64,000 bases of DNA from Gemmatimonadota bacterium (lineage in GTDB: Bacteria; Gemmatimonadota; Gemmatimonadetes; Longimicrobiales; Gaopeijiaceae): assembly GCA_015664885.1 (NCBI GenBank), contig DQPL01000009.1, positions 1 through 64,000 on the forward strand, read 5' to 3'. Both the position numbers and the translations under genes were made by a program. This document shows positions 27,515-37,782 of the stretch, piece after piece (position 1 is the stretch's first letter; each line of letters opens with the position of its first letter). The notes under the pieces were generated by a model. It did not search any database. It was not told the origin of the DNA and saw only the letters and a program-made list of their open reading frames with translations.

Positions 27515-29458
27515 ATGATGAGACTGGTCCGCTATTGCATGGGCGCCGCGATGTTCGCGAGCGCATGCACGCCGGCACTCAAGCTGACCCCGAGTGACGC
27601 GCCAACCGTGCTCGCGCATCAAGTGCTCGAGGCGGCGGATCCAGGCCTGCCCGGTCCGTATGAGGTGCTTCAGCTCTATTACGGAAGCGGCACCGACAAG
27701 AACCGGGTCGAGTACCGCGACTCGGTCGCGATCACGACCGAGCCGGTCGACGCCTCGAAGCTCGTCAGCCTGGGGGGTGCCGCGGACAGTCGCAACGAGT
27801 ATTGGGGCTTCACGCCCACGGAGATGCCGCTCAACGCACGCGTCTGGTACCCCAAGGGCGACGGTCCTTTTCCGCTGGTGCTCGTGGTGCACGGCAACCA
27901 CAGCATGCGCGACTTCTCAGACCCGGGTTATGACTATCTCGGAGAGTTGCTCGCCAGCCGTGGATACATCCTCGCGAGCGTCGATGAGAACTTCATCAAC
28001 GGTGCGCGCGGAGAGAACGACGCGCGCGGCTGGTTTCTCCTGAAGCATCTGGGGGAGTTCGAGCACTTCAACGAAGAGGAGGGCAATCCGTTCGAGGGGA
28101 AGGTCGACATGAGCAACGTTGCGCTCATTGGTCACTCCCGTGGCGGCGAAGCCGTAGCGAACGCCGCCGCCTTCAACAAGCTCACGCACTACCCCGACGA
28201 CGCATCGCTGACGTTCGACTTCGACTTCGACATCAAGGGCATCGTCTCGATCGCGCCCGTCGACGGTCAGTATTTACCGACGGGCCGTGGGGTCGTCGTG
28301 GAAGACATGAGCTACCTCACCTTCCACGGGTCGCATGACGGGGACGTGACCAGCTTCCACGGATTGCGCATCTACGACCGGCTGCGGTTCAACGACTCGG
28401 CCGATTTCCGCTTCAAGGCCGCTGTATACGTGTACCGCGCCAACCACGGGCAGTGGAACAGCGTGTGGGGGTCCGGCGACATCGGGCCGCGCAGCGCGCG
28501 CACCCTCGACCTGCGCGGGCTGATCCCACAGGTGGACCAGCGTCGTTTCGCGGAGATCTATGTCTCGTCCTTCATGGAGGTCGTGCTCAAGGGACGCCTG
28601 GAGTACTTGCCCATCTTTCGCGACCACCGCGTGATCGGACAATGGCTGCCGAGCACGATGTACATCACACGCTTCGAGACGAACGCGTTTCGGCCGCTCG
28701 CGACGTTCGAAGAAGACATTGACGTGACGCGAGGTACCGAAGACGGTGTGAGTCTCCGAGGTGTCTCGCTGTCGACCTGGCGGGAGGCGACGCTGATGCT
28801 GCGGTCCTCGAATCGACCGACCACGTCGGCGTCGCAGGAGAACCAGGCGGTAACACTGGGCTGGAACAATCGCATCGCTGGTGCCGACACGACCCGGCAC
28901 CGCCCAGCTGCTTCGTACTCGGTCGAGCTGGGTGGGCGCCTGGCAGCGCGCTGGGCGCTCGGACGACAGCATTCGCTCGAGTTCATGCTCGGGCCCACCG
29001 ACTCTACGCCACGAGCGCGGCGTGATGCCTCACAACCCGCCGCAACATCTGCACAGAATGACGACGGGAGTGGTCGCGGGGGTGCCGGACGTGCCCGCGG
29101 CCGGGACGACCTGGAGATGCCTGCGGTAGACCTCAGCATACAGTTGGAGGACGCCGCGGGGCGTACATCGAGCGTGGTGTTAAGCGAGTATGGCGCCATC
29201 CGCCGACCGCTCGAGACCCATGTCATGCGCCGGTCGGACCAGGAGTGCCAGAGGTGCACGGCGCCCTGGGAGCTCATCCTGCAGACGTACTCGATTCCGC
29301 TCTCGGACTTCGTCGAGCAGAATGCTGCGCTCGATCTCCGGCAGCTCAGCGTGATTCGCTTCTTGTTCGACCGTGTGCATGCCGGCGAGGTGGTCGTGGA
29401 CCAGATCGGCATCAGCGAGTTGGAGCCGGGCTTTCTGAGCGCACGGGTGGAGCGGTAA
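27515..29458 (+). CDS. Secreted alpha/beta-hydrolase-like lipoprotein
   Basis: Starting at ATG 27515 (647 residues) a signal with lipobox FASAC predicts lipid anchoring. The catalytic core is an alpha/beta hydrolase: PLVLVVHGNH (oxyanion region), ALIGHSRGG (nucleophile Ser), and FHGSHDGDV (acid region). The later half (residues 360-647) is a beta-rich accessory domain containing a low-complexity SGRGGAGRARGRDD segment. The substrate is unknown. The stop overlaps the next start by one base (TAATG), linking it to the asparagine-synthetase-like cassette. Confidence 0.75.
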   Translation: MMRLVRYCMGAAMFASACTPALKLTPSDAPTVLAHQVLEAADPGLPGPYEVLQLYYGSGTDKNRVEYRDSVAITTEPVDASKLVSLGGAADSRNEYWGFTPTEMPLNARVWYPKGDGPFPLVLVVHGNHSMRDFSDPGYDYLGELLASRGYILASVDENFINGARGENDARGWFLLKHLGEFEHFNEEEGNPFEGKVDMSNVALIGHSRGGEAVANAAAFNKLTHYPDDASLTFDFDFDIKGIVSIAPVDGQYLPTGRGVVVEDMSYLTFHGSHDGDVTSFHGLRIYDRLRFNDSADFRFKAAVYVYRANHGQWNSVWGSGDIGPRSARTLDLRGLIPQVDQRRFAEIYVSSFMEVVLKGRLEYLPIFRDHRVIGQWLPSTMYITRFETNAFRPLATFEEDIDVTRGTEDGVSLRGVSLSTWREATLMLRSSNRPTTSASQENQAVTLGWNNRIAGADTTRHRPAASYSVELGGRLAARWALGRQHSLEFMLGPTDSTPRARRDASQPAATSAQNDDGSGRGGAGRARGRDDLEMPAVDLSIQLEDAAGRTSSVVLSEYGAIRRPLETHVMRRSDQECQRCTAPWELILQTYSIPLSDFVEQNAALDLRQLSVIRFLFDRVHAGEVVVDQIGISELEPGFLSARVER

Positions 29459-30801
29459 TGTCTACCATGACTCAACGCCAAATTCCGCTGAACCGCGTCG
29501 TCGACCTCACCGATCCCGGCAGGAACGTCATCTTCAACATGACGGTCGAAGAGGCTCGCGAGATCTTGCGCTCTGGCCCCGTGGAGGCCGTTGAGACGAT
29601 CGACGGATCGTTCGCGCTCGTGAGCGTCGAAGGCAGTACCGTGCGCCTCGCGCGCTCGATGGACCGCCCTCTCAGGCACTTCATCGCGAAGCTCGTCGAT
29701 GGCCCATGCCTAGTCGTTGCCGACCGTGTCGACTCGATCCACGCTTGGCTCGTCGAGAAGGGTATGGACGGCCAGTTCCACCCGTACTACACGCGCATGG
29801 TGCCTGCGCACTACGTTACACAGCTGCAGCTCGTCGGGTGTCCTGATCCGACTCCGACGTTCGAGCGCTTCTTCGATCCTCCGCGCGGTACCGCGACCGA
29901 CGACCTCGAGACCTTGGGTGAGGCCTACGTACGCGCCGCCTACGACGAGATCAGGAAGTGGATCGACCACCGTGCGAGCGAAGGTCCGCTCGGTGTGTGC
30001 TTCTCAGGCGGCATCGACTCGGGGGCGGTCTTCCTGCTCACCCTGCGGGCGCTTCTCGAGCACGGTGACGTGCCCACGCGGCTCAAGGCGTTCACGTTGG
30101 CGGTGGACGGTGGTGGGGCCGACGTAGATCGGGCGCGCTCCTTCCTCGAGCAACTGGATCTCGGACTGTACCACGAGACGATCGCGGTCAGCAGTGCGGA
30201 TCTGGATTGGCGGGAGACCGTGCGTGCGGTCGAGGACTACAAGCCGCTCGACATCGAGGCTGCGACCATGGGGCTGGCGCTCGTGCGCGGAATTCGGAAA
30301 CGGTATCCCGAGTGGGAGTATCTGCTCGACGGCGACGGCGGCGACGAGAACCTCAAGGACTATCCCATCGAGGAGAATCCGGAGCTCACCATCCGGAGCG
30401 TGCTCAACAACTCTATGCTGTATCAGGAGGGGTGGGGCGTGCATAGCATCAAGCACTCGCTCACGTATAGCGGCGGGTTGAGCCGTAGTTATGCGCGCAC
30501 ATATGCGCCGGCCGCGCTGAACGGCTTCGATGGGTTCAGTCCGTTCACGCAGCCCGAGGTCATCCGGATCGCGGAGTCGATTCCGTTCATCGAGTGGACC
30601 AATTGGGATCACGCCGAGCTGTACGAGTTGAAGGGCCGTCTGGTATCCGCTGGGATTCGGGCTCTGACGGGACAGGAGATGCCCGTTTTCGAGAAGTGCC
30701 GCTTCCAGCGCGGCGCTGTCGAGAGCGATGTGTTTTCGTCTGCGTTCCCGACCGACGCGATGGAGTACCGCCAGGCGTTCAACGCGATTTACGCCTCGTA
30801 G
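29458..30801 (+). CDS. Asparagine-synthetase-like ATP-dependent amidoligase
   Basis: This 447-residue protein starts at ATG 29458, overlapping the hydrolase stop. Its N-terminal region resembles a degenerate class II glutaminase domain without the nucleophilic Cys2. The C-terminal PP-loop synthetase has the ATP motif SGGIDSG near residue 183, DGDGGDE near 299, and FEKCRFQRGA near the end. Without the Cys the enzyme probably cannot use glutamine; it may use ammonia, or form another amide or beta-lactam-like bond. Three genes here (30 to 33 kb) are coupled, suggesting one pathway. Confidence 0.85.
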   Translation: MSTMTQRQIPLNRVVDLTDPGRNVIFNMTVEEAREILRSGPVEAVETIDGSFALVSVEGSTVRLARSMDRPLRHFIAKLVDGPCLVVADRVDSIHAWLVEKGMDGQFHPYYTRMVPAHYVTQLQLVGCPDPTPTFERFFDPPRGTATDDLETLGEAYVRAAYDEIRKWIDHRASEGPLGVCFSGGIDSGAVFLLTLRALLEHGDVPTRLKAFTLAVDGGGADVDRARSFLEQLDLGLYHETIAVSSADLDWRETVRAVEDYKPLDIEAATMGLALVRGIRKRYPEWEYLLDGDGGDENLKDYPIEENPELTIRSVLNNSMLYQEGWGVHSIKHSLTYSGGLSRSYARTYAPAALNGFDGFSPFTQPEVIRIAESIPFIEWTNWDHAELYELKGRLVSAGIRALTGQEMPVFEKCRFQRGAVESDVFSSAFPTDAMEYRQAFNAIYAS

Positions 30802-30805
30802 CAGG

Positions 30806-31813
30806 GTGAGCGGGCGCGCCGCAAGGTCCTCGCCTTCCTCGGCCGGGGCTGCCGAACAGGGCGGCCCGCTTCAGGCCACGCCGAAAGCAACCACCGAGTG
30901 GATCCGAAGCCTGAGGGCGCCGAAGCCCTCGTTCGACCCGTGGGTACCGCAGGCGGTTCAGATCGAGGACGAGCGCGCGCGTGACGGCTCGACCGCATCA
31001 GTGGGCACGGTCTTCATCACCAACCGCGAGTGCCCATTTACGTGCCTGATGTGTGATCTGTGGAAATACACCACCGATGAGTCAGTACCGGCGGGGGCGG
31101 TGGACCGTCAGGTGGAATCGGCGCTCGCACAGATGGGTGCCATCAGCCAGGTGAAGCTGTACAACGCGGGGAACTTCTTCGACGACCGCGCCGTCGCACC
31201 ACCCGATCGGGAGCGCATTGCGACGCGCCTGGGGCATTTGGACGCCGTGATCGTCGAGAACCACCCCAAGATGGTGGACGACCGCGTTAGGGCGTTCCGT
31301 GACCTGGCAGGAACCGACGTGGACGTCGCCATGGGGCTCGAGACCGTTCATCCTGAAATTCTTCCTCGCCTCAACAAGCGAATGACCCTGGCGGATTTCG
31401 AAGCAGCGAGCGAGCGTCTGCGCGCCGCGGAGCTGCAGGTTCGTGCCTTCATCCTGGTACGCGCCCCCTTCATGACCGAGGCCGAGGGCGTGGAGTGGGC
31501 GTGCCGCTCGATCGACTTTGCGTTCTCGGTGGGCGTCGAGTGCTGCGCGGTCATCCCGACGCGCGCCGGCAATGGCGCGCTCGACGCACTGGCGGCCGAG
31601 GGTCAATTCCAGGCACCGACGCTCGATTCTCTCGAGGCTGTAGCGGCGTACGGCCTGGGCCTCGGACAAGGCCGCGTATTCGCCGACCTGTGGGACGTCG
31701 AGCGTATCGCGACATGTGACCGCTGCTCGCCCGCGCGCATAGAGCGTCTGCGCACGCTCAACCTAACGCAGACGATCCCGGCACTCGTGCCCTGCGAGTG
31801 CCGTGCGGTGTGA
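30806..31813 (+). CDS. Radical SAM enzyme (CxxxCxxC)
   Basis: GTG at 30806, four bases after the previous stop, gives 335 residues; an earlier in-frame start overlaps that gene. The cluster motif NRECPFTCLMCDLW (CxxxCxxC) lies near residue 75. It is followed by KLYNAGNFFD, VENHPKM, GLETVHPEILPRLNKRMT, and a C-terminal CDRC...CEC group that could hold a second metal site. The barrel pattern resembles the uncharacterised MiaB-like radical SAM proteins (recalled as COG1244, unverified). It is expected to generate a 5'-deoxyadenosyl radical; the substrate is unknown. It overlaps the flavoprotein gene by 11 bases. Confidence 0.88.
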   Translation: MSGRAARSSPSSAGAAEQGGPLQATPKATTEWIRSLRAPKPSFDPWVPQAVQIEDERARDGSTASVGTVFITNRECPFTCLMCDLWKYTTDESVPAGAVDRQVESALAQMGAISQVKLYNAGNFFDDRAVAPPDRERIATRLGHLDAVIVENHPKMVDDRVRAFRDLAGTDVDVAMGLETVHPEILPRLNKRMTLADFEAASERLRAAELQVRAFILVRAPFMTEAEGVEWACRSIDFAFSVGVECCAVIPTRAGNGALDALAAEGQFQAPTLDSLEAVAAYGLGLGQGRVFADLWDVERIATCDRCSPARIERLRTLNLTQTIPALVPCECRAV

Positions 31814-33299
31814 GGTCGCGGTCATCGGTGGAGGATTCGGTGGCACGCTCGTAGCGATGTGCCTCGCGGCGCAGGGTCGTGACGTCATCGTGCTCGAACG
31901 GGAACGGCATCCTCGCTTCGCGATCGGCGAGTCGTCCACTCCGCTCGCGAACCTCGTGCTCGAAGACATCATTAGAACGTACTCGCTTGAGGCGTTGCTC
32001 CCGCTTTGCCGTTACGGGACGTGGAAGCATAGCTATCCCAAGGTGCGCTGCGGGCCGAAACGCGGATTCAGCTTCTTCGCGCACGAGCCCGGGCGCCCCT
32101 TCGAGGCGTTCAGCGACCATCGCACCGAGCTGCTGGTGGCGGCCAATCCGTCGCAAGACCTCGCCGACACCCAGTGGCTGCGCTCGGACGTCGACGCGCT
32201 CTTTTCCGAGACCGCCAAGGCCCAGGGAGTACGTGTGCTCGAGGGCGTGAGCGTGCTGGACGCCGAACGTGGGAGGCGATGGAAGCTGGCCCTCTTGCAG
32301 GAGGCGGAGGACGCGTCGTCCACACCGGCTTCGGGCCGGTCGCAGTCGTTCAGCGCTGACTTCGTGATCGACGCGTCGGGCGGTGCCTCGCCGCTCCACA
32401 CGGCAGTCGGACTCACCGATGCCGGCGAGAGCCTCGCCACACGGTCGCGCGCAATCTTCTCGCACTTCGAAGGCGTCGAAACCTGGCACACGGTCTGCTC
32501 GGCGGCTGGCGGGAATCTCGATGACCATCCGTTCCCGGCAGACGACGCGGCGCTGCACCACATGACGCGCGAAGGCTGGATCTGGATGTTGCGCTTCGAC
32601 CACGGCGTGACGAGCGTCGGCGCTGTGCTGACAGACGACGGAAAGAGCGGGTCCATCGAGGAGGAGTGGAAGGCGCTGTTCGAGCGATATCCGTCGGTGG
32701 CCGCCCAGATGTCTACAGCCCTGCCGACGAGACCATTGGTGCGCACGAGCCGCTTGCAGCGACGCCTCCGTCCCGCGGCGGGACCGGACTGGGCCTTGTT
32801 ACCGGGAGCCGCCTACTTCATCGATCCACTCTTGAGCCCCGGGAATGCGCATACCATGCACGGTGTGGAACGGCTGTCGCGGATCTTCGAGTCGTGGCCA
32901 GACCGAGGCGCGATGGCCGTCGGGCTCGATGAGTACGACAGCCGCCTGCAGGCCGAGGTCGACTTCATGGACCCGCTCATACATGGCTGCTACCTGGCGA
33001 TCGATTCGCTACCTCTATTGGCCGCATACACGATGTACTACTTCGCGGGCGCCATCCACAGCGAGGAGCGGCGGCGTGACGGCACCGCCGAGGGCGCTGA
33101 CGGCTTCCTGCACTCGCACGACGAGGCGTTCCGTGGGCGGGTGATGGAGGCCTATCACGATCTCGCCGACATCACCGAGGGCCCGGTGGACGCCGGCGTC
33201 GTCGAAGCGTTTGCAAGTCGAGTCGCTGCAGACATCGAGCCGTGGAATACCACTGGCCTCTGTGATCCCGAGCGCCAGAACATGTACCCCTACAAATAG
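31803..33299 (+). CDS. FAD-dependent oxidoreductase, tryptophan-halogenase-like
   Basis: The 498-residue protein starts at GTG 31803 inside the radical SAM gene. The FAD-binding motif is EVAVIGGGFGGTLVA at residues 4-18, followed by VLERERHPRFAIGESSTP (halogenase-like GESS) and FVIDASGG. In place of the halogenase WxWxIP motif there is GWIWMLRF, so a true halogenase function is doubtful. It more likely performs hydroxylation, reduction or another flavin reaction on the product of the neighbouring genes. Confidence 0.85.
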   Translation: MRCEVAVIGGGFGGTLVAMCLAAQGRDVIVLERERHPRFAIGESSTPLANLVLEDIIRTYSLEALLPLCRYGTWKHSYPKVRCGPKRGFSFFAHEPGRPFEAFSDHRTELLVAANPSQDLADTQWLRSDVDALFSETAKAQGVRVLEGVSVLDAERGRRWKLALLQEAEDASSTPASGRSQSFSADFVIDASGGASPLHTAVGLTDAGESLATRSRAIFSHFEGVETWHTVCSAAGGNLDDHPFPADDAALHHMTREGWIWMLRFDHGVTSVGAVLTDDGKSGSIEEEWKALFERYPSVAAQMSTALPTRPLVRTSRLQRRLRPAAGPDWALLPGAAYFIDPLLSPGNAHTMHGVERLSRIFESWPDRGAMAVGLDEYDSRLQAEVDFMDPLIHGCYLAIDSLPLLAAYTMYYFAGAIHSEERRRDGTAEGADGFLHSHDEAFRGRVMEAYHDLADITEGPVDAGVVEAFASRVAADIEPWNTTGLCDPERQNMYPYK

Positions 33300-35400: not shown

Positions 35401-37782
35401 ATGCACTTCGCGATATTTCAGCTGGCGCTCTCTACGCTCGTGCTCGGGCCCGGCGACGGGGATTCGAGTGAAGCGAAGGCCTATTCGGGCCGGGCCGCCG
35501 ATAACGAGGTCGCCACCCCTGCGCTAGATCGGGCCCAGATCGACATCGACGGTCGCCTTGACGACGCTGCTTGGCAGCAGGCCGCACTCCTGACCTCGTT
35601 CACGCAGTTCCGGCCGGTCGAAGGCGTGGAGGCCTCCGAGAGGACCGAAGTCCGAGTGCTGGTGGACGCGGAAGCGATCTACTTCGCGATCATGGCGTTC
35701 GACAGCGACCCCAGCGGAATTCGCGCGACGCTAGCTGAACGCGACTCCTACACACGCTCTGACGACTACGTCCGCCTCATTCTGGACACGTTCGACGACG
35801 CCCGGCGAGCATACGTATTCACGGTGAACCCGTTGGGTGTGCAGCACGACGGGATCTGGAACGAAGGCGGAGGCAGCGCGGGACGACGTCACGGCAACTA
35901 CGGCCAGCCGATCGACGACAACCCCGACTTCCTTTGGGACTCTGACGGGGCTATCACCGAGTGGGGCTACCAGGTCGAGGTGCGGGTCCCGTTCAAGAGC
36001 CTTCGTTTTCCTGAGGCCGAGCAGCAGTCCTGGGGCCTGCATGTGCAGCGCCGGATACAGCGCAGTGGGTTCGAGAGCTCATGGGCGCCGATCACCGCCA
36101 ACGTGTCCAACAAGTTGACGCAGGCCGGAAAGCTCAACGGTTTGCGTAACCTCGACCCGGGGCTCTTCATGGAGCTCAACCCCGTGCTGACTGGGAAACG
36201 AATCGGCGAGTTCAATGCCGCTGACGGGCTTTTCCGGCGGCAGGATCCGAGCGGGGACTTCGGTCTCAACGCCACGTATGGAGTGACCTCTAATCTCACG
36301 CTGGATGCGACCTACAACCCGGACTTCAGCCAGATCGAAGCGGACGCGGGCCAGATCGTCGTGAACGAGCGTTTCGCGCTCTTCTTTCCCGAAAAGAGGC
36401 TTTTCTTCCTGGAAGGAACCGAGATCTTCGGGATGGCGAAACAGATCATCTATACCCGCTCGGTCGCCAACCCGATCGCGGGTGCAAAGCTCACCGGCAA
36501 GCTGGGTAGTTTGAACGTCGGCTACCTGGGCGCGATCGACCAATCGTTCGACGCAGGCGCCGCCAACACAGTCGTGAACTTGGTGCGTGTGCGTCAGGAC
36601 GTGGGCGCGGCCTCTACGATCGGCGCCGTATACACAGACCGCACCATCGGGGCGAACAATTTCAACAGGGTCGCAGGGGCCGATGCGCGGTTCGCGCTCA
36701 ATCAGCGCTACACCCTGACGATGATCGGGGCTGCGAGCTTCACCGACAATCCCGGTCTGACGTCCCGAGCGACCGGAAGCATGCTGAGCGCCAAGATCGA
36801 GCGCGCCGGACGGGCGGTTTCCTTCAACGCGGAGCTGGAGGACACAGACGCGAACTTCGACGCCGGAAGCGGATTCTTCCGCCGGATCGGGGACACGCAG
36901 TTCAACTCCCGCTTTTCGTATAACTGGTACGGCAAGCGCGGCGCACTGATCCAGCAGGTCGGTCCCTCGTTCGACTTGAAGGGCTATTGGGACCACGATG
37001 CGTTCTGGGCCGGCGAGGGCATCGAGGAGGGCGAGGCACAACTCGGTTGGCGGGTCGGCTTCAGGGGCAACATCATGTTCTGGGGCAACCATCAACGGTC
37101 GATGTTCGATTTTGCGCCGGAGGCGTACCAGGGGCTGGTGGTCGCGCAGACCGACGGCTCGTATACGGATTTTCGACCGGACCAGTCGCTCTTCGGTGGG
37201 CTGAGCTCGACCACGTTGTCGCTCTGGGTGAACAAGTGGGAGCGTGTTCGCGGCAACGTCCGCTACACGTTCTCCGAGACCCCGGTCTTCGATCGCTCCT
37301 TCGGCGTGGCGGTCGAGCCCGCGGATTCACGCTCGACCGAAGTCACGCTCAACCTGTACCCGACGCGCTCGCTCGTGGCCGAGCTGGGCGTCCGGCAGAC
37401 TCGCCTCACGCGTAGGACCGATGGCGTCGAGCTCTCCTCGGCGCTCATTCCGCGGGTGCGCGCGCAGTACCAGTTCACGCGCTCGCTCTTTGTTCGCGGT
37501 ATCTTCGAGTACTCGAGCCAGGAGCGTTTGGGGCTCCGAGATCCGGCGACGGGGTTGTCGCTCTATCGCGTCGACCAGAGCGGAGAGTACACCTTGCGCA
37601 GTGGCTCCGAGGGCTACGACGTCCACATCGAGGGTCTGGTATCGTACGAGCCGTCGCCCGGCACGGTCTTTTACGTCGGCTATACTCGCCAGATGGAGGA
37701 CACGGAGTCGTTCCGATTCAGGGAGGTTCGCGCGATGGCGGACGGCCTCTTCGTGAAACTGAGCTACCGCTTCCGTATGTAA
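35401..37782 (+). CDS. DUF5916 outer-membrane-type protein with N-terminal CBM9-like domain
   Basis: The 793-residue protein has a short hydrophobic N-terminus, then a CBM9-like beta sandwich (DIDGRLDDAAWQQA, VRVLVDAEAIYFAI) at about 45-220. A DUF5916 C-terminal region of alternating strands follows, with the conserved RFALFFPEKRLFFLEG block and ending KLSYRFRM, a typical outer-membrane barrel C-terminus with a terminal aromatic-rich strand. Family role is unknown; carbohydrate or substrate uptake is suspected. No export signal longer than about 15 residues is visible, so the start may be slightly wrong. Confidence 0.85.
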   Translation: MHFAIFQLALSTLVLGPGDGDSSEAKAYSGRAADNEVATPALDRAQIDIDGRLDDAAWQQAALLTSFTQFRPVEGVEASERTEVRVLVDAEAIYFAIMAFDSDPSGIRATLAERDSYTRSDDYVRLILDTFDDARRAYVFTVNPLGVQHDGIWNEGGGSAGRRHGNYGQPIDDNPDFLWDSDGAITEWGYQVEVRVPFKSLRFPEAEQQSWGLHVQRRIQRSGFESSWAPITANVSNKLTQAGKLNGLRNLDPGLFMELNPVLTGKRIGEFNAADGLFRRQDPSGDFGLNATYGVTSNLTLDATYNPDFSQIEADAGQIVVNERFALFFPEKRLFFLEGTEIFGMAKQIIYTRSVANPIAGAKLTGKLGSLNVGYLGAIDQSFDAGAANTVVNLVRVRQDVGAASTIGAVYTDRTIGANNFNRVAGADARFALNQRYTLTMIGAASFTDNPGLTSRATGSMLSAKIERAGRAVSFNAELEDTDANFDAGSGFFRRIGDTQFNSRFSYNWYGKRGALIQQVGPSFDLKGYWDHDAFWAGEGIEEGEAQLGWRVGFRGNIMFWGNHQRSMFDFAPEAYQGLVVAQTDGSYTDFRPDQSLFGGLSSTTLSLWVNKWERVRGNVRYTFSETPVFDRSFGVAVEPADSRSTEVTLNLYPTRSLVAELGVRQTRLTRRTDGVELSSALIPRVRAQYQFTRSLFVRGIFEYSSQERLGLRDPATGLSLYRVDQSGEYTLRSGSEGYDVHIEGLVSYEPSPGTVFYVGYTRQMEDTESFRFREVRAMADGLFVKLSYRFRM

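Follow-up and report, generated by a model that had tools for sequence, protein, structure and literature searches.

Three adjoining enzyme genes

The window, a stretch of 64,000 nucleotides from a Gemmatimonadota genome (contig DQPL01000009.1), carries three intact open reading frames that adjoin one another on the plus strand in the order gene A, gene B, gene C. A gap of 4 bases separates A from B, and B and C overlap by 11 bases; the intact frames bear out the adjacency and the spacings described in the initial annotation. The stop codon of a hydrolase gene lying upstream overlaps gene A by 1 base. A DUF5916/CBM9-like protein is encoded on the same strand at 35401–37782 and is apparently unrelated to the cassette.

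Gene A (29458–30801, plus strand) encodes a ligase of the Asn-synthase family, 447 amino acids long (PF00733, 3.5e-13), with a vestigial Ntn domain. Its PP-loop, SGGIDS (residues 183–188, positions 30004–30021, plus strand), is marked by four residues, S183, G185, D187 and S188, that are invariant in alignment A5. The glutaminase Cys, described as lacking in the initial annotation, is indeed missing from the N-terminus of the window copy, and no Cys is present in the first 12 residues of 111 of the 112 aligned relatives. This absence, together with a score against TIGR01536 (glutamine-dependent asparagine synthetase) of 45 bits for a cut-off of 267, places A outside the glutamine-dependent asparagine synthetases. 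A sequence search for A among solved structures gave no match. The AlphaFold model of A (mean pLDDT 80.7) has as top Foldseek match the beta-lactam synthetase 1mc1 (E 5.5e-15, TM 0.61), asparagine synthetase ranking behind, and A combines the PP-loop, the Cys-less Ntn domain and the fold of the beta-lactam-synthetase-like class. Residues 294–345 are the most conserved stretch of the protein, yet they are modelled at low confidence. Known Asn-synthase-like enzymes of natural-product pathways make amides and lactams, and some make nitriles (PMC13060819), so that A may have any of several products.

Gene B (30806–31813, plus strand) encodes a radical SAM enzyme (PF04055, 7.8e-8). Its start codon is uncertain, being either the GTG at 30806 or an in-frame start farther upstream within A, and residues 1–36 are not conserved. 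C76, C80 and C83 of the CX3CX2C motif (residues 76–83, positions 31031–31054, plus strand) are invariant, and four C-terminal cysteines (residues 304, 307, 330 and 332, positions 31715–31801, plus strand) are invariant or nearly so in 16 relatives. Both the radical SAM assignment and the C-terminal Cys cluster had been proposed from the window alone; the conservation of the cluster suggests a putative second metal site. The best curated family of B is TIGR01210 (RaSEA), with 6.1e-30 and 104.5 bits for a cut-off of 212, and the alignment spans profile positions 4–296 of 313, which is nearly full-length for B. The best B relative tested scores 118 bits, also below the cut-off. By sequence, B is a full-length, sub-threshold relative of RaSEA. 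Solved structures yielded no match in a sequence search with B; its structure model has a confidence of 91.4, and the closest folds are Elp3 radical SAM domains.

Gene C (31803–33299, plus strand) encodes a flavoprotein of 498 amino acids (PF04820, 3.3e-15) that resembles CtcP/PltM-type halogenases; the initial annotation had already called it halogenase-like. CtcP, the tetracycline 7-halogenase, and PltM are its best solved relatives, with phmmer values of 2.7e-32 and 4.5e-30, and profile matches to them (1e-74 and 1e-72) cover most of the length. The three glycines of the FAD-binding GxGxxG motif (G9, G11 and G14) are invariant, as is Lys86 (32058–32060, plus strand), which aligns with the catalytic Lys of PltM (Lys87) and of CtcP (Lys98) (PMC6424973, PMC12400496). 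A weak match to QhpG (1.1e-16) was also found. C could possibly catalyse oxygenation without halide instead of halogenation.

Co-inheritance and spread of the cassette

A search for gene B found it in 6 of 98 relatives and, among 395 genomes of the phylum, in 41, two of which gave weak matches (E 2.7e-5 and 6.8e-4) and were set aside, leaving 39. Genes A and C were counted by profile searches in the same 395 genomes. C was retrieved from 39, including G081, where the match is weaker and probably a different protein; with this genome excluded, A, B and C are present in 40, 39 and 38 genomes, respectively. These are almost the same genomes, and the homologues are thus not scattered independently. 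A is present in every B-positive genome, and the only genome of the 395 with A and no detected B is G003, a fragmented assembly that also carries C. When the neighbourhoods were searched with the trio by tblastn, order and strand were kept in nearly all, the exceptions being contig ends and the closed, single-contig genome G251. The junctions A/B and B/C are most often 4-base overlaps in these relatives. The A-B-C arrangement is not due to chance: nearly all relatives, drawn from several families of the phylum, have the genes in this order and on one strand. The genomes surveyed are mostly metagenome assemblies, and the distribution of the trio is patchy, at about 10 percent of the phylum. In G251 (L037, L154, L155), A and B lie 350 kb apart and are both retained, while C is missing. 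A third place in this genome holds a CRTAC1 protein that is 64 percent identical to a neighbour of A-B in Maribacter.

In a wider set with one genome per species, at least 551 relatives of A were confirmed by means of the A alignment. The loci examined are the best 80 of these, a set biased to the copies closest to the window's A. They belong mainly to Bacteroidota, with others in Planctomycetota, Calditrichota, Marinimicrobia and further groups, and include cultured species of Maribacter, Lutibacter and Lutimonas. Within these best 80 of at least 551, B adjoins A in 76 loci; of the remaining four, three have B elsewhere in the genome and one is at a contig end. Most Bacteroidota loci share an identical 8-base overlap at the A/B junction. 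C follows A-B in 12 of the same best 80 loci, all from Gemmatimonadota or Planctomycetota, and is absent genome-wide from the Bacteroidota genomes of the set that were checked. A general lack of C in Bacteroidota was nevertheless rejected, as four loci of a broader Bacteroidota sample (L159, L160, L161 and L164) carry A-B-C. Bacteroidota, Calditrichota and Marinimicrobia share a large clade that has A-B without C, the gene having probably been lost there. On account of this clade the core is limited to A-B, and C counts as an add-on that tracks it. The initial view of the trio as a functional unit holds, the unit being real and conserved, but has to be narrowed to A and B for the core.

Co-inheritance of the three genes extends to at least three bacterial phyla. 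In the tree of A, the window's copy groups as sister to a Gemmataceae copy, apart from the majority of the copies in its phylum. The A and B trees agree (r = 0.92 for 112 loci, relatedness not being controlled). These two observations fit joint horizontal transfer. A phage or plasmid origin was rejected, since searches for B among viral contigs and for A among plasmids gave no relative, and neither protein has a PHROGs match; a defence system was likewise rejected, with no PADLOC match.

Genes found beside the cassette

The secreted hydrolase had been suggested as a possible fourth member, translationally coupled to A. Its 1-base overlap with A is real, but it lies beside the trio only in the window and in three genomes of the window's family, and in two of these four loci it is 415–439 bases away; its membership was rejected on these grounds. 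The absence of a peptide precursor, also proposed initially, was confirmed on a larger scale: within 1.8 kb of the cassette in more than 110 loci, no conserved short ORF was found beyond fragments or antisense of known genes.

Outside the window's family, frequent neighbours encode CRTAC1 (FG-GAP/UnbV_ASPIC) proteins, which occur in 66 of the same best 80 loci, and in one locus (L132) the CRTAC1 gene overlaps A by 4 bases. They accompany the cassette in 25 of 38 phylum loci, against a background of about 10 such genes per genome. Each of the 15 Bacteroidota genomes that match B strongly has PF07593, compared with 97 of 198 overall (p ~1e-5, without phylogenetic correction). A single CRTAC1 subfamily as obligate partner was rejected, as close kin of the Maribacter neighbour are missing from several A-B genomes. 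The window's own genome has 11 UnbV_ASPIC matches, and another of its contigs (L156, 1970–19901, G000:C99) bears a cluster of four large CRTAC1 genes, unlinked to the trio.

An RnfD-like membrane protein is another recurring neighbour, and in 17 loci from two phyla the cassette is accompanied by a CRTAC1/RnfD-like (UnbV-UnbU) pair. On a Streptomyces plasmid the same pair is flanked by DUF1702 genes on one side and a type I PKS on the other, an arrangement that we take to be the UnbL-UnbV-UnbU-PKSE of enediyne clusters; the RnfD-like proteins of cassette loci are homologous to that of the plasmid (2e-13, 1e-16). UnbU is encoded in 26 of 40 cassette genomes versus 3 of 40 others (Fisher p 9e-8, not corrected for relatedness). 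It is absent from the window's own genome, and is thus not required. In the window's genus and family the trio stands alone, with no CRTAC1, UnbU or SusC/D gene beside it.

Other neighbours are found in part of the loci. SusC/D genes adjoin the cassette in 12 of 38 phylum loci and also in part of the Bacteroidota; GH97, creatininase-like and glucosamine-deaminase-like genes go with them in some loci, and an MFS transporter recurs in two phyla. HZS-alpha-like and cytochrome genes lie near A-B in some loci; in L132 (8234–13307), and similarly in L084, L092, L093, L120 and L121, an HZS-alpha-like gene and one for a beta-propeller/MauG-like cytochrome stand beside CRTAC1 and A-B, which links the cassette to HZS-like clusters (PMC12758564). 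Radical SAM and Asn-synthase genes go unmentioned in the main text of that paper. An AhpD/CMD-like protein encoded near the cassette in several genomes (L058, 13749–14333, plus strand; L055, 14696–15274) has an in-frame TGA at NQC(V/T)FUT(S/N)AH and is, by its sequence, a likely candidate CxxU selenoprotein.

Possible pathway, alternatives and known systems

On the basis of the gene content and order, co-inheritance, motifs and fold class described above, we infer a possible order of steps, types of reaction and nature of the product. A would adenylate a carboxylate with ATP and couple it to an amine; the amine would come from the substrate and not from glutamine, as it does in beta-lactam synthetase. 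B would then perform radical chemistry on the adduct made by A; by analogy with archaeosine synthesis, it might cut a C–N bond and leave the nitrogen behind, a suggestion that rests on the sub-threshold relation of B to one enzyme family. Where present, C would halogenate or oxygenate the product of B with FADH2 and O2. The end product would most likely be a non-peptide small molecule or a cofactor, working with the secreted CRTAC1/UnbV proteins and with membrane transport. The proposed ligate-then-cleave order takes as its model the ArcS–RaSEA pair, a complex of two enzymes in which ArcS ligates lysine and RaSEA carries the reaction on to archaeosine (PMC11298593).

Taken as a whole, the idea of a dedicated pathway that has spread horizontally, with A then B as core and C optional, and that most likely makes a non-peptide small molecule or cofactor, seems to us evenly poised between right and wrong. 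Three observations favour a small molecule over a secreted-protein target: the lack of a precursor ORF, the lack of a single obligate CRTAC1 partner and the solitary position of the trio in the window's genus. Several points weigh on the other side: A is not homologous to the ArcS of the model, the most conserved stretch of A is the part modelled at low confidence, the solitary trio of the window's genus and family lacks the CRTAC1, UnbU and SusC/D genes seen elsewhere, and the data do not separate a small molecule from the modification of a secreted protein. The latter is the strongest competitor, although we think it rather unlikely: A and B, and C where present, would be maturases that act post-translationally on a secreted CRTAC1/UnbV (FG-GAP) protein. 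QhpD and QhpG, which mature quinohemoprotein amine dehydrogenase, provide the model. The frequency of CRTAC1 genes at A-B loci, the overlap with A in L132, the PF07593 enrichment (uncorrected for phylogeny), the weak QhpG match of C and the HZS-alpha-like and cytochrome genes of some loci all agree with such a role, but no single CRTAC1 subfamily travels with A-B, none is encoded near the window's trio, and A and B have no visible signal peptide whereas CRTAC1 proteins appear secreted.

The remaining explanations fare less well. Tailoring of a ribosomally synthesized peptide whose precursor is encoded elsewhere is improbable: Asn-synthase-like, radical SAM and halogenase enzymes are all known in RiPP pathways (PMC13060819, PMC12715798), but the search around the cassette in more than 110 loci revealed no conserved short ORF. 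The initial annotation had left room for a small-molecule or a tRNA/cofactor pathway, and the tRNA option has become weak, B scoring below the RaSEA cut-off and the neighbours not being tRNA-modification genes. A bacterial counterpart of archaeosine synthesis that modifies a nucleoside or tRNA, with A replacing ArcS, could call on RaSEA being the best curated family of B and on the complex formed by ArcS and RaSEA (PMC11298593); it is quite improbable given the patchy distribution in about 10 percent of the phylum, the halogenase-like third enzyme, the Asn-synthase fold of A and the neighbouring genes, which encode secreted proteins and transporters. Most improbable of those considered is a step of uptake or catabolism served by SusC/SusD, and not a biosynthesis. 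It would account for the SusC/D genes of 12 of 38 phylum loci and some Bacteroidota and for their GH97, creatininase-like and glucosamine-deaminase-like companions, but these vary from locus to locus whereas A-B is constant, and a sequence of ATP-dependent ligation, radical chemistry and halogenation would be unusual in catabolism.

No description of the cassette was found in the open-licence literature, either as this gene combination or as UnbV with radical SAM or enediyne, and the trio points to an undescribed pathway. A two-enzyme core kept in several phyla, even when split as in G251, almost certainly makes something specific. A bolder proposal, which we put forward tentatively and judge somewhat more likely wrong than right, is that A-B forms the heart of an undescribed pathway shared across phyla. 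Its output, either a new molecule with a redox or signalling role or a new protein modification, would be put to use by the secreted CRTAC1/UnbV-UnbU machinery, for which no role in enediyne clusters has been explained; B would be the first case of RaSEA-type radical chemistry outside archaeal tRNA. If true, this would extend that chemistry beyond its archaeal substrate and offer a possible way into the function of the CRTAC1/UnbV proteins, an unexplained group that many environmental bacteria encode. As carriers include cultured Maribacter, Lutibacter and Lutimonas, the pathway is directly testable.

The cassette resembles several known systems in part. Like A, beta-lactam synthetase and carbapenam synthetase have an Asn-synthase fold, a PP-loop and a vestigial Ntn domain without Cys; however, identity is only ~18 percent, the substrate region of A differs (DGDGGDENLKDYPIEEN), and no clavam or carbapenem genes were seen near A. 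B shares with RaSEA (TIGR01210) the CX3CX2C motif and a near full-length alignment, and A-B would share with ArcS–RaSEA a ligation that precedes the radical step, but ArcS belongs to a TGT-like family not homologous to A, and no tRNA-modification gene, ArcS or ArcTGT, is adjacent to A-B in the loci. C has full-length FAD-domain similarity to CtcP and PltM and their catalytic Lys, although its sequence is distant and no flavin reductase is adjacent to it. The cassette loci of many relatives have a CRTAC1 gene next to one for an RnfD-like protein, as in the UnbV-UnbU pair of enediyne PKS cassettes, whereas no enediyne PKS was seen at A-B-C loci. Finally, while most A-B loci are devoid of HZS-like genes, some bring HZS-alpha-like and CRTAC1 genes together, as do the HZS-like clusters flanked by CRTAC1 (PMC12758564).
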